From Nitzschia sp. pyKryTriq1 (taxonomy: Eukaryota > Bacillariophyta > Bacillariophyceae > Bacillariales > Bacillariaceae), in contig OY101118.1 in the NCBI GenBank assembly GCA_956465555.1, positions 1,116,001 through 1,180,000 on the forward strand: 64,000 nt of DNA, written 5' to 3'. Shown piece after piece: positions 1,848 through 8,904 of this stretch. Made by a program: the position numbers and the translations under genes. The first letter of the stretch is position 1; the number at the start of each line of letters is the position of its first letter. The notes beneath the pieces were generated by a model, which had not been told where the DNA came from, did no database searches, and saw only the letters and a program-made list of their open reading frames with translations.

Positions 1848-4800
1848 TCATATAGCAAACTGTACCCGTCGTCGTTTGACTTTCTGGTCCTCGGTATGTT
1901 GCGTCTCCAGATCTTGACTCCTCTTTCGATTACCCGTAGGACCGGCCACAAGCGGATTTGTGGCGGAACTCGTAATGAGTCGAAGATTTTTAAGCAGGAA
2001 TTGCAGTTTCGCTCGTTGGTATTCGGAACCTTTTCCTGCTTCAGTGGCCGATTGCATGCCTTGTATTTCGGCCAAGTTTTGCTGCGCTCCGCTTTGTAGA
2101 TCCGCTTCGAGATGGGCCATTAGCTGCTCCACACTGTTTTCCGCGACCAGCGTCTCTACCTCGACAGAGCCTTTTGCACCCATTCTCCATGCTCTCGCAA
2201 CGACTTGTTGCTCGAGAGAATGGTCCCACACCTGCTCCAGAAAGATAATGTTTGTCACAAAACTAAGATCAAGTCCTTCACTTCCATCCTTGCCCAGAAG
2301 CATGCAAAAGCATTGGCTGTCGTACACAAACTTGTGTAGTTCTTGCTTCCGATATTTGCCCCAGTACTCCGCAACGCAAGCAGTCCCACACCGTCTGATC
2401 AACCGATCACCGACTGTGTTTAAAACACTTCGGAACTGAGAAAACATGATAACCTTTAGTGGTCTCCTGTTTGAACTCAAAGTGTGCTCCCCAAAAACAG
2501 TCCTCGTAGGACTAGGAGGGGTTTGTCGCTTTCGTTGCTCCTCGTACAATCTCAAGAGTTTTTGGACAACGTAGAATGGCTTTGTCTCGAACTCTGGACA
2601 CGGGGTCGCCTTTCGATAGCAAATTTCGCAGAGACCACCAGGGGTCAGTAAGTTGCAGTTGTCGTGTTCCTTCCAACACAACTCGCATTCTCCGCTGGGA
2701 TCTCTAGGACTGTACACGCACTTGTGTCCGTCGCCAGGTTTTGCAGTGCGGACACGTTCACGAGTGGTGTCGAAGGGTGCTAGCACGCCCCTGCCGTCAT
2801 CTAGCAACTCAACTCGAGATGGGGGGTCTTCGGAGCCCTCTTCATCCAACAGTGGTGCTTTGCTTTTGATTTTCTTCTTCTCCTCCTCGACATTATGGAG
2901 CCATTGATAATCCATGCCCGGCTGCAGCTTCTGAAAGATGTCAATATCAAACTCCTTGTCGCAAACGACACAATGATTCGACTTGGGATCGAAGCATTCG
3001 GTACAGACCAGATCTGAAACGGTCGGGCAAACAAAAGGAAAGTAGTGTGAGAAAAAATAATCGCTCGTGGGAGAAGATCCCAGGTGACCTTGAAACATAC
3101 CTCCACATGGCACCACAAGCAACGTAGTAAGCAAGGTACCACAGCACCCACAGGGTGAGACCCTCTCGGTCGTAGCTCGAGATAAGTATTCTTTCATTTT
3201 TTTCTTCAAACCAGGGTCTGGGTTGTAAAACGCAAAATCATGAAGAAACTCGTACCAAAATTGCTCTGTAATGGTAGGGATGACTTGAGTGCCACCGGCA
3301 CAAACCAGCCGCACGTTTCGTAGGGCATCCTTTGCATGTCGAGCTTGGGATCGGTGCAGCAGAGAGTCCTGTTGGCCAGAGGTCTTTCCTTCCATCGAAG
3401 TGATCGCAAGATTCTGTTGAATGGCAGACACCAGGGTATTGTAGGTCTTGGTTTCCTCCATACTCATTGGCAAGCAGTGTGATCGGAAACTGGGAAGCGG
3501 GAGTTCTTCAATGTCCAGCTTGGTATGCCGCACCATCAGCAGTGCCAACAGTTTGTGCAAGCGAAAGAAGGAGCTAAGCATGCCTCTGCTCCATCCACGA
3601 GCAATCAGGTTCTGCCACACCGACTCCCCGTCTTGACGACGAGAGAAAAAATCGTGCTGGAGGTAATTCACCAAATTCAGAAGGTTTGATAGTCCCGATT
3701 GAGAAACAACCTGTCTTGTAGGTGTTCCGGTCATTGCCCACCGCCGCTCCGCAGAAATCCAAGATGCAAATGAAATTGCGGAATTTTCCTTCCCACGTCC
3801 CATTGAATGACCTTCGTCCACAATCATTCGAAGCCAATTGACCTTTAAAAGTGCACAAGCTTGCTCGGACTCGGTAAAGGAGGATCGAAAGTCGTCTTCC
3901 AACTGCTTTTGGTTGCTGTCAGCGGACTCTACTTGACGCAATTCTTCCTCGAATGATCCATTCTTCCACTCGTTGGTGAATCGCTGGTTGGTCGTTAGGA
4001 CAATACTAAACATGGCGAGAAATTGCGGTGATGGCAGCGTTCGGGTGCCCGTCTTGTCGACGAAAAGAAACGGACAGTGTGTTTGATCCACCCGACACTC
4101 TCGAACTACTTCTTCCAGTCGAAGATTATTCTCTGCCGTTCCAGTAAACTCAAAAAGGATCGGAATTTTGTCGGTGCAGTATGCCAGGTTCACATGAAGC
4201 CGAAGCTGATCCTGCCAGTGTTCGAGAAGAACAGATGGCACCACCAATAAGGTACTAGAGGACTGTACAAGGGCGTTCTGCAGTTTGATTTGAGTGTCCA
4301 GCTGTACTAAGGCTGCCACGGAAGAATTGGGTTTTGCAGAAACTCGTGAGAATGACTTCTTGGCCGTTTGAACCTGTTTTTGTTTGAACTCGGTGACTGC
4401 CTCGAGAAATGTAAGTTCTAGCTGCAGAGCTGATAGGTGAATTAAGCTGTCCTTCGGATGGTAGGTGGTCGCATTTCTGCCGAGAAGACAACGTTCATGC
4501 GTTAGTTTGAGACAAGGGAAACGCACACTTATCCCCCCGCCCCCCCCCCCCCCCCCCCAAAGAAAGAGAAATTGACTCACCGAAAGCATTGAATGACGTC
4601 CGATTCGAAGGAAGAGAAAGAATCGTCGTACTGAAATTTATTGATTCGTTTGCGAACATCTTGAAGGCAAATTGGGTTGGAAATGACATCAAAGTAGTCT
4701 AGTACTCCATCACCCTCTGGATCCACGGGAAACATGAATATATTTGTGGCTGGGTTACTTCGAATGAAGGTTGACAAAAGCTTGTTTAGGGCCTGGGCGC

Positions 4801-6376
4801 GGAACTGTGGAATGGATTGTTCCCGCCAATACTCGGAAAAAATTCGTTCTTCGTATGTCTCGCTTCCTTTTCCCTCTCCTTTGTGATCGCTGGGTTGGAT
4901 TTTTGGCTCTGTTGATAAGCCCAGAGTTTGAAGAATCAACGATAGAACTGTGATGGTCTTCCCCAGCCCCGGGTCATCGCACAAGAGTCCACCTCTGGCT
5001 ACACTTCTAGAAAGTGGATCATCCGATCGCAGAATCACTTCATCACCGTTATACTGAGAAATTCGGTGCACGGAGGGACGCTGCTGCTGGTGGTAAGTGG
5101 AACTTGACGACCGCGATCGCAACAGTACCGTCGCCCCGCCCGCGGCAGCATTGTGAAGGTCGTCCATGTGCACGGTGGTTTCTTGATTCTCGCTAAGGGA
5201 TAATTCATTTTCAGTGACTGGTCGCGTTTCTCTCAGCCGCATCCACGACAATGACTTGACTTGATGCGCGTAGAGTCGGAGGCGGAGGCCTGGCACAACT
5301 TCTTGAAGGATCCGGTGAAAGTATTTGCTTGTGCACCGCAACGCATCAAGCGACTTAGCCTTTAGAAATGCCCCGACATGATACTGCCAAACATCATTGG
5401 GAAGGTCCACACAAGTAGAAGTCAATTTTGATCGAGCACAATCAAATGGTCGGACAGATTCTTCTCTGTCCAAAAAGGAAGCGGCTGCGCCTCCTATCCG
5501 CTGATACACCTCATCCAAGGAAAGCTTTGAGGGAAAAAAGGAGAGCGATCGACTGAGTGAAAATGATGATTCGTCTATCCTTGCCCGTGACAAAACATCA
5601 GGGCGTTTCCGAACTTGGTCAAAGAAGTTCCAGTCACTTCTCAGTATCGACAACAATAGTTGTGTTGCGGCAGGCAGGGGCTTGGAACTATTGGAAATAA
5701 ATCGTCTCCTAGGGAGGCCTGGCTGACTCTTTCGGCGACGCGATTGTCCGCTTGGGCTACCCTGGTGGTGAGGTCGATCATTTATCTCAGGAACCGATAC
5801 CGTAATCAACATGGCAGCTCTTCGATAGCCGGATGATTCCTCTACAGCCAGCAGCGGATCATTCTGGCGTCTATCACTTCGAAGAAAAACTTCGACTGAC
5901 CGAATGACAACGTGTCCCATATCTTGGCACGTCAGGGCAAGCCCTAACAACAAAGCTCCGTCCGATCGCTGCCGTAATTTTTCCACACAAGAACAAAGGT
6001 TGTCACGTGGCTTGAGGTCCAGTGTGGTTCCGTCGAATCGCGGCGTAGGCTCTACCGCCACCACAGAATTCGATGCTTCGATTGAAGAAGAACTGCCAGC
6101 TTGCCACTGAAAAGTCAGCCAACAATGCGGACAATATCCTTCAGCATCTTTGTCCTGCACAAGTGTTTCATCATGTCCCGCCTTGTTTGCTGTATGAAGC
6201 GGGAGCCATTGGTCGTTGGAAGACGTCGTCGGAGCATCGGAAGAAGAATCCTTCTCGTTTGCAGTTGATCTTGAACCCCGCATCGAAACCTCGCAGTCTT
6301 CAAGGAAAAGAAATCCAGACTCCCCAGGATTCACACCCAGTGCTTCCTCCATGGCTTCTGTCGGCGAAGAGGTCAT
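1848..6376 (-). CDS. F-box/SNF2 ATPase with inserted bromodomain and RING
   Basis: Three exons on the minus strand, 6376..4581, 4476..3101 and 3013..1848, encode about 1445 residues. In order: an F-box-like segment (LPNDVWQYHVGAFLKAKSLD), Walker A (DDPGLGKT, near residue 467), a bromodomain (FPVDPEG…LDYFDVISNP…NATTYHP) that spans the first intron, and SNF2 motif Ia (LLVVPSVLLEHW). After these come DEGH (near 816), a RING (CGCCG…PCGDLVCTEC…CVVC) and a second Cys-rich segment. The helicase C lobe (FSQFRSV, EGLDLSF, ARAWRMG) follows. An F-box plus SNF2 is known in a plant family (At3g54460 type), and RING insertion in the ATPase is typical of RAD5/SHPRH/HLTF ligases. Probable role: nuclear chromatin or DNA-damage ATPase with ubiquitin ligase activity. 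The 87-nt second intron is in frame and, if kept, would split the RING. The start at 6376 is the first in-frame ATG. Confidence 0.85.
4533..4558. repeat. Poly-C/poly-G homopolymer tract
   Basis: Twenty-five C residues with one G, inside the first intron of the F-box/SNF2 gene (poly-G on the coding strand), 22 bases from the donor site. Such tracts are prone to slippage and sequencing error. Confidence 0.9.
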
Positions 6377-6998: not shown

Positions 6999-8351
6999 TT
7001 ACACCCTTGCTGCAACTACAGTAATACTACTAGCCTCCTTTTGCTGAAGCTGCTGCCGCGTATCAGACAGCGCTGACTCGGCCACAAATTTGAGTGGGAT
7101 GCAAGACTCCTTGGATATTTCCTGGCAGTGATCAAACTCTGGTTTAATCGACAGAATCTCTCCAGTTTGAAAACTTGAGACTTTGACATCGACTTTGCCT
7201 TCTCGCCGAGTAGCCGTGTACGGTGTCTGAGCAACTTCTACGAACCGGCACAATTTGGCGCGTGGTAGGTTTCTGTAAATGCGGACTCCCAAGGTAGTCG
7301 TATGACGAAATAAAGCCTCCAGAAGTCTATCCTCTAGTTCAGAGTTCTTGTCAGACAAACATAAGCAATGAATAGTATGTGCTGGACGACCCTTCTTCAT
7401 GACAATGGGTGTGACCCAAACGTCGGCCGCACCTACTTCGAATAGCAACTCAATAACATGAGCCAAGAGCTCACCGGTAATGTCATCGAGATTGCACTCA
7501 AGCTGTGTCACCGTGTCCGACAACCACAACGTCGACGGAACAGGCGGTTTCTTTATCATCGGCGAAGCAATGGACACTATTTTGTTTTCTGAACTTCCCA
7601 CCAATAGACTGACGACATCTGAGCTTGTGTGAGAGCCACCCATTCCACTCGCTTTCAAGATTATTGACGAATCATCTCTACGGGTTGGTGATTGGTCCAC
7701 GCCACGTAGAACACGCAACAATGAAACCACCAACGGGTTCGGCAGCGCGAAATCACCCGAAATGATACTGTTCACAGGCAATCCAACCAACAGCTCACGC
7801 AAAACAGCCACATCGGTACCATTCATAGAAAGTGGATTGAAGGAAAGCGGCCCAATGCATACAACCCGTCGAATACCTAACAGTTCAAGAGAATGGAGGC
7901 TACCAAGTACATAAACTAGATCAGCTTTCAAGATTTTGGTCTCACCGGGTGGTAGTCCTGATATCTTGTTTCTAATCTTGATCACACAGTCGAATACCTC
8001 GGCACAGGTCCTGAGCAACCATTCAGCAGACCCACTTGGACTCTTAGTTCTTCCCTGCGACAGTAATTCATGAAATTCTTCATGGGTCATAGATGAGGCG
8101 TCATCGATGTCTTCATTGAGATGTAACACAGAACCGGGGGACTTCCGGCATGGCGACGTAGCGGACAATACTTTGTTAGTGTCAAGATCCAGAAGAGAAG
8201 ATAGATAGCTATGCAATCCATCCATGGTTTTTGATGGATCAGCATCTTTCGATCTAGATACAACATCAATACATGCAGCCAGAAAGGCACCCAACGACAA
8301 TCCCCGAGAGGACTGGACGTGGCAAAGGGTTTCCACGAAAAATTCGTCCAT
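6999..8351 (-). CDS. larC: LarC-like nickel-pincer cofactor protein (DUF111)
   Basis: Single exon, 450 residues. The middle and C-terminal parts match the LarC/DUF111 family: LECNLDDITGELLAHVIELL, then GAADVWVTPIVMKKGRPAH and TTTLGVRI. In bacteria LarC is a CTP-dependent cyclometallase that inserts nickel into the pyridinium bis-thiocarboxylate cofactor used by lactate racemase and related enzymes. The N-terminus (SSRGLSLGAFLAACID) aligns with the usual SGISGDMFLAALLD but lacks the GDM core, so activity is uncertain. A central ADLVYVLGSLHSLELLG stretch corresponds to the family's H/D-rich segment. Size is normal for the family. The gene is head-to-tail with the SNF2 gene. Finding LarC in a eukaryotic nuclear genome suggests an old gain from bacteria or archaea; that is inference. 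Confidence 0.8.
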   Translation of the reverse strand: MDEFFVETLCHVQSSRGLSLGAFLAACIDVVSRSKDADPSKTMDGLHSYLSSLLDLDTNKVLSATSPCRKSPGSVLHLNEDIDDASSMTHEEFHELLSQGRTKSPSGSAEWLLRTCAEVFDCVIKIRNKISGLPPGETKILKADLVYVLGSLHSLELLGIRRVVCIGPLSFNPLSMNGTDVAVLRELLVGLPVNSIISGDFALPNPLVVSLLRVLRGVDQSPTRRDDSSIILKASGMGGSHTSSDVVSLLVGSSENKIVSIASPMIKKPPVPSTLWLSDTVTQLECNLDDITGELLAHVIELLFEVGAADVWVTPIVMKKGRPAHTIHCLCLSDKNSELEDRLLEALFRHTTTLGVRIYRNLPRAKLCRFVEVAQTPYTATRREGKVDVKVSSFQTGEILSIKPEFDHCQEISKESCIPLKFVAESALSDTRQQLQQKEASSITVVAARV

Positions 8352-8904
8352 CGCTTTCCACTCTCTGTACGAAGTACCTGTAGTCTACCAGACTAGTGCA
8401 TCCCCTTTTTGGACGAGCACAATATCGACCAAGAATGAGGCCCTACGGTTCCATGACACTGTGGTCTACTCGACACGCAGGTAAAGTGGAAGAAAGAAGA
8501 AGATGGATACTGGAACAGTCATAATGGACGGACGGGGATGTGATGCTGCGACAACTTGAGACATCTCTGCATCGATCATCGATCATCGATCTTGCCGTAC
8601 TTGATACTTGAAATTGTCAATCACTACTCTACCGGTACCTGGTACCGGTACAGTAGAGCCCGAAGAATCATCATCCCTAAGCCGCTCACCTGGCTACAGC
8701 CAGCCAGACGGAGGCAGAAGGAGCTTCTGATGGAAGCGTCTTTTGCATATCCAATGGATAAGCGAACATTCAGGATTCTCCATATCCGAATACTTTTTAT
8801 GATATATCCAATGGTTAGTGTCTGTCGTGTCTGCGGCGTCTGTTTGTTCTTCTCCTCCCTTTTCGTCCTTTTTCCGTCTGTCATCCCTTTCCTCGGTAAA
8901 ATGT
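8352..8904. other. Intergenic with GGTACC-type palindromes
   Basis: Upstream region of the minus-strand LarC-like gene. No supported gene. The palindrome accggtacctggtaccggta lies at 8631-8650. Open frames here have no family signature and lie in low-complexity sequence. Confidence 0.6.

Follow-up and report, generated by a model that had tools for sequence, protein, structure and literature searches.

Several described kinds of SNF2 ATPase come close to the protein considered here, which is encoded on the minus strand at positions 1848 to 6376 of a 64,000-nucleotide stretch of contig OY101118.1 from the diatom Nitzschia sp. pyKryTriq1 (this whole stretch is called the window). SHPRH is an SNF2 ATPase that has a RING-type finger and, within its ATPase region, additional domains of chromatin type, and the window protein is built in the same way. 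It differs in having a bromodomain where SHPRH has H15 and PHD, in an F-box-like segment further upstream, and in a RING-like finger with Asp in the place of a His. Rad5 and HLTF also combine SNF2 with RING, and Rad5 is the best PDB relative of the C lobe of the window protein among the 60 matches listed; unlike these proteins, the window protein has a bromodomain insert and no HIRAN match in Pfam (whole spliced protein, E<=1). Remodellers of the BRM/SNF2 type carry an ATPase and a bromodomain on one protein, as is the case here, but their bromodomain lies outside the ATPase.

In plants, AT3G54460 (CHR39) is classed in SHPRH (PMC3781322, PMC9820626 and PMC10051476, in the passages considered), and the soybean proteins GmCHR11 and GmCHR36 of the SHPRH subfamily have an F-box while zf-C3HC4 was undetected in them (PMC10138738, in the passages considered). 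The window protein resembles the soybean pair in both respects, by description and not by sequence; a bromodomain is nowhere mentioned in PMC10138738. Because GmCHR11 and GmCHR36 have been described, the pairing of F-box and SNF2 is not new. An earlier note on this DNA, made from the sequence alone, knew of no described protein with the exact set of domains; this stands for the bromodomain element, which has no precedent in the literature searched, but not for the F-box and SNF2 pair (PMC10138738, as above). Among the papers listed by a literature search restricted to open access, none reports a bromodomain inside an SHPRH-type ATPase. In a table of oomycete proteins (in the passages considered), the SNF2 rows with a bromodomain have it either past helicase C or ahead of SNF2, and in no case inside.

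The reading that we favour, with a probability of about 0.65, is that the window encodes a single divergent SNF2 ATPase of the Rad5/SHPRH group with an atypical bromodomain in an insert between motifs I and Ia. The features on which this reading depends are as follows (window coordinates).

1848..6376, minus strand: whole gene, three exons, 1,445 amino acids, from splice enumeration and translation
6376..4581, minus strand: exon 1
4477..4580, minus strand: intron 1 (GTGAGT..GGCAG)
4476..3101, minus strand: exon 2
3100-3014, minus strand: intron 2, which splits the RING-like Cys cluster
3013..1848, minus strand: exon 3, with the stop codon at 1850..1848
5240..5272, minus strand: N-terminal ATPase motif YAHQVKSLSWM, residues 369-379; the Pfam SNF2 match begins at residue 371
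4955..4978, minus strand: Walker A (motif I) DDPGLGKT, residues 467-474
4581..4783, minus strand: exon 1 part of the bromodomain, residues 532-599 (Pfam PF00439; 31.6 bits for exon 1 alone in the genome scan)
4428..4476, minus strand: exon 2 part of the bromodomain, residues 599-615 (Pfam and alignments)
4460..4458, minus strand: His605, at the acetyl-lysine Asn position in the alignments
4215..4250, minus strand: motif Ia LLVVPSVLLEHW, residues 675-686
3807..3818, minus strand: motif II DEGH, residues 819-822
2178..2474, minus strand: helicase C lobe, residues 1238-1336 (Pfam PF00271, E 1.2e-5)

All motifs that the earlier note quotes were found on the minus strand in the order given there. 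In the spliced protein Pfam places SNF2 (E 2.4e-36) and Helicase_C (E 1.2e-5; 26 bits, cut-off 23.5) over their cut-offs, and TGTP stands at residue 848. The C lobe ends in RAWRMG (residues 1331-1336), which by analogy would be the arginine-finger motif. With both lobes, Walker A, DEGH and this motif, the window protein has the sequence features of an SNF2 ATPase. Of the five families for which a Pfam search had been proposed, SNF2, Bromodomain and Helicase_C thus pass, but F-box and RING stay below. Neither H15 nor PHD was given by Pfam for the whole spliced protein at E<=1.

The bromodomain was predicted to lie between Walker A and motif Ia, and this is where it is found. Pfam matches Bromodomain to residues 532-615 (E 1.6e-11; 44.4 bits against a cut-off of 21.7; profile positions 3-82 of 84), in the region around residues 540-630 that had been named for it, and the bromodomain region alone gives E 2.5e-13. 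FPVDPEG stands at residue 549 and NATTYH at residue 600. Including that of the window, the genome has 34 bromodomain matches, and a profile was also made from the 33 others (genome scans refer to the assembly of 20 contigs and 40.65 Mb, in which the window is on contig C4). This profile scored the spliced bromodomain at 58.5 bits and exon 1 alone at 41.9 bits, and a chance resemblance was rejected since the best of 1,000 shuffles reached 9.0 bits. Taken by itself, the exon 2 part does not appear in the six top rows listed for this profile. With the 117-residue bromodomain region, 343 distinct PDB sequences were matched at E<=0.01, the best 60 of which include polybromo-1, TAF1, CBP/p300 and BRD4. 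On this evidence the bromodomain is real. A single-sequence AlphaFold prediction of residues 310-598 had a predicted local distance difference test score (pLDDT) of 34.5 and a predicted template modelling score (pTM) of 0.24, and is used for no claim.

The insert is long. Motifs I and Ia are 206 residues apart in the window protein (205 by another measure). Among 24 other SNF2 stretches of the genome, 16 could be measured by motif search, and in 12 of these the distance is 21-27 residues, the remaining values being 33, 52, 60 and 140; the other eight, L021 included, were not measurable by a simple motif search. The distance in L021 (L021:253-4827; G000:C1:2283571-2288145) is 210 residues, and there a PHD-like finger is found between GLGKT and motif Ia. 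L021 is called SHPRH-like here because of this finger in the insert and its position in the tree described below; the label is our own, and a RING of L021, if any, is beyond the stretch examined. Human SHPRH has a reader-type insert between the same two motifs, a trait that the window protein and L021 share. At the four other places of the genome with SNF2 and bromodomain matches (on C2, C5, C7 and C12, taken as match positions) the bromodomain match is within about 3 kb of the SNF2 match and outside it.

The comparison with SHPRH drawn in the earlier note is supported by this common slot and by the tree of lobe 1. This tree has 25 rows, one for the window protein and 24 for other SNF2 stretches of the genome, and groups the window protein with L017, L026, L030, L023, L021 and L025 with a support of 98/97. 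Four of these (L017, L026, L030 and L023) lie near RING matches, that of L023 being below the cut-off. When four rows were removed the grouping was kept (100/100), and with six rows removed, L021 among them, the window protein stayed on the same side (96/94). Within its own genome, and on a long branch, it is thus placed together with RING-bearing SNF2 proteins, as would be expected for a member of the Rad5/16-SHPRH group. The genome search found no close paralogue for 997 residues of the protein; the nine non-self matches of these residues, at 22-34 bits, are four bromodomain stretches and five C lobes. Searches of viral and genome contig collections gave no relative (1 and 4 pattern stretches); these are not eukaryote sets and are uninformative on diatoms.

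The acetyl-lysine pocket is where the bromodomain departs from the canonical form. Helix B, FESDVIQCFRNATTY, agrees with the published consensus (PMC3326523, in the passages considered), two of the hydrophobic positions being taken by Cys and Ala. The residue right after it, where the Asn that anchors acetyl-lysine normally stands, is His605, and the alignment to the PDB bromodomains gives the same register. In an alignment of the 34 bromodomain rows of the genome, some of them exon fragments and one with a gap in this column, the 33 residues are 27 Asn, 3 His, 1 Trp, 1 Tyr and 1 Ala; the three His rows are the window protein, L081 and L085. The anchoring residue is N140 in BRD4. Thr or Tyr may take the place of the Asn; the passages of PMC3326523 on which these statements draw say nothing of a His there. 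The BC loop of typical acetyl-lysine readers begins with an Asn, which is missing here. The proposal that the protein reads acetyl-lysine is weakened by the replacement of the anchoring Asn, and acetyl-lysine reading by this bromodomain is not assured from its sequence.

It had further been proposed that the same polypeptide carries two different ubiquitin-ligase modules. Segments resembling both are present, together with a second Cys/His cluster that the earlier note does not mention.

5294..5404, minus strand: F-box-like segment, residues about 325-361 (Pfam below the cut-off and in-genome profile)
2961..3152, minus strand: RING-like Cys cluster, residues 1041-1075 (Pfam Prok-RING_4 on a fragment; Cys spacing)
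2598..2726, minus strand: second Cys/His cluster (7 Cys, 2 His), residues 1154-1196, C-terminal of the RING-like finger

The F-box-like segment begins with LPNDVW at residue 325. Pfam gave no F-box family for the whole spliced protein at E<=1, and on a 67-residue fragment F-box-like and F-box scored 14.3 and 14.2 bits, below their cut-offs of 20.5 and 24.3; the segment is also absent from the 45 F-box matches that the genome scan gave at E<=10. A custom profile made from 20 of these 45 matches scored the fragment at 18.7 bits and the whole protein at 15.7, while no shuffle out of 500 exceeded 10.6. Over the 249 open reading frames of at least 80 amino acids in the window, this profile gave 15.9 bits to the exon 1 frame and 5.4 to the best other. 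The custom profile thus modestly supports a divergent F-box, which is not proven.

The RING-like finger consists of C1041, C1044, C1056, D1058, C1061, C1064, C1072 and C1075. When the splice donor at 3100 is used, its seven Cys are spaced as in a RING, and Asp1058 occupies the position of the zinc-binding His. The C3HC4 ligand pattern of a RING ubiquitin ligase is thus broken. Prok-RING_4 scored 26.3 bits on a fragment and 20.5 on the whole protein, both below the cut-off of 27. No Pfam family was found at E<=1 for the second Cys/His cluster, which lies N-terminal of the C lobe. What remains of the claim of two ligase modules is the two segments themselves; both are below threshold, the finger has Asp for His, and the ligase function of either is putative.

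A number of points weigh against the reading of the window protein as an SHPRH-group ATPase with a bromodomain in its reader slot. The main doubt comes from the pocket: with His605 in the place of the acetyl-lysine Asn, the ligand may not be acetyl-lysine. Both the F-box and the RING are under their curated cut-offs, and the PHD-like finger of L021, to which the slot is compared, scores 15-16 bits with a cut-off of 24. The smallest tree splits the remaining trio of RING-associated rows from the window protein (95/91) and places the latter only outside the other 15 rows. Its branch is very long, with 3.1-4.3 changes per column, and ranks first or second in length in every tree. On the basis of in-genome sequences, the protein may be SHPRH proper or another Rad5-type member.

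Several other explanations can be considered. That the gene model is an artefact, or that two neighbouring genes were joined, we regard as very improbable. It is true that the model is a splice prediction and that a long G run in intron 1 is hard to sequence. Yet the intron borders are GT-AG, and exon 1 supplies SNF2 motif I, exon 2 motifs Ia to III. The Pfam matches to SNF2 and to Bromodomain both continue from exon 1 into exon 2, and splicing lifts the bromodomain score from 41.9 to 58.5 bits. The two halves therefore belong to one gene, as the single polypeptide of the earlier note implies, and the two-gene reading was rejected. More weight is due to the possibility that the bromodomain is a relic fold, no longer an acetyl-lysine reader and serving only as a spacer or protein-interaction surface. 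This would fit His605, given that 27 of 33 rows in the genome keep the Asn, and in BRD4 a change of the anchoring Asn to Ala weakens or abolishes peptide binding (PMC3326523, in the passages considered). Much of the pocket signature (PVD, DYF, NAxxY) is however retained, and His is also a donor residue; we consider a relic quite possible, with the odds somewhat against it.

The slot can likewise be read in more than one way. The insert could have been gained by a Rad5-type protein independently of SHPRH, the common position being a coincidence. The enlarged gaps of L017 (140 residues), L026 (60) and L020 (52), which contain no stop codon but could contain an in-frame intron, indicate that the site tolerates inserts generally, and within the gap of L017 no Pfam family other than SNF2 itself is over its cut-off. 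(A SAP-like run seen there by eye, at L017:1504-1959 on contig C8, was dropped since Pfam has no SAP at this place.) Against this, a distance of about 200 residues is found among the rows measured in no protein but the window protein and L021, and the inserts of both hold a chromatin-reader-like module, so that an independent origin appears rather doubtful. Alternatively, the diatom gene could be orthologous to the F-box SNF2 proteins of plants (AT3G54460/CHR39, GmCHR11/36), with the inserted domain changed in the lineage. AT3G54460 is classed in SHPRH and F-box members of that subfamily lacking a detected zf-C3HC4 exist (the plant papers cited above, in the passages considered), but the F-box of the window protein is weak and the likeness rests on descriptions and not on plant sequences. 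Such an orthology is a tentative idea to which we would give slightly less than even chances.

If the protein is indeed an SHPRH-group ATPase with a bromodomain in the slot, the insert would jut out from ATPase lobe 1. The bromodomain may then be a chromatin-docking module which holds the DNA-translocating motor at nucleosomes; given His605, the docking partner could alternatively be another acylated or an unmodified one. The RING-like finger may recruit a ubiquitin-conjugating enzyme (E2), with histones or PCNA as possible targets, as with SHPRH. Skp1, also encoded in the genome, is a possible partner of the F-box-like segment. By analogy, the window protein would be an SHPRH-like remodeller and ubiquitin ligase in which the reader slot is filled by a module of bromodomain fold, the ligand and both ligase activities being putative. 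In a wider sense, the insert between motifs I and Ia of SHPRH-type ATPases could be an exchangeable socket into which different lineages place PHD or bromodomain readers. A histone mark recognised there would act directly on the ATPase lobe and so control both DNA translocation and ubiquitin transfer, with a His-based pocket here for possibly another acyl mark or none. This is speculative and rather unlikely.

Chromatin readers are usually found beside the motor of a remodeller, and a bromodomain within the ATPase lobe is thus an unexpected placement. Its presence at the slot where L021 has a PHD-like finger suggests that the site accepts different readers. The window protein and L021 are a natural pair for testing the coupling of mark recognition to the motor, and the His-for-Asn pocket is a natural test case for the ligands of atypical bromodomains. 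The architecture is known from one genome, and its ubiquitin-ligase modules are weak.

The donor of intron 2 was chosen among four candidates. The site at 3096 was dropped because the protein becomes shorter, 3106 because one Cys is lost and 3088 because the RING spacing is broken. The remaining site, 3100, was taken for its RING-like spacing. The choice thus depends on the RING reading, as does Asp1058. In intron 1 (window 4533-4558, minus strand) there is a run of 19 G followed by C and 6 G, likely a hot spot of sequencing error or length polymorphism.

Other loci of the genome show related combinations. L089:736-3750 on the minus strand (G000:C11:590235-593249) encodes a different SNF2 ATPase with an F-box at its C-terminus, for which F-box-like (25.4 bits) and F-box (23.2 bits) are both over the cut-off; by eye only, its sequence is SWR1/INO80-like and its tail past the F-box looks beta-helical. 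CHR39 is taken to carry a CW finger in the corresponding region, although no statement of this was found in the open-access literature searched. In the genome, an SNF2 ATPase match at G000:C12:1498998-1501224 is followed after about 1 kb by a match to the CW zinc finger. Silicon transporters have eight matches in the assembly, seven of them nearly complete, in keeping with a diatom. Skp1 has three matches, two of which are equal-scoring copies. These form one of the equal-score pairs between C1 (about 3.92-4.32 Mb) and C3 (about 2.77-3.18 Mb), the other three coming from the F-box scan; the pairs are offset by about 1.138-1.147 Mb, a pattern that points to the duplication of a large segment or to a duplication made in assembly. 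Within the window, an aminotransferase gene adjoins the SNF2 gene tail to tail, and the upstream neighbour (7002-8384, minus strand) matches the nickel insertion protein family (E 8e-41).

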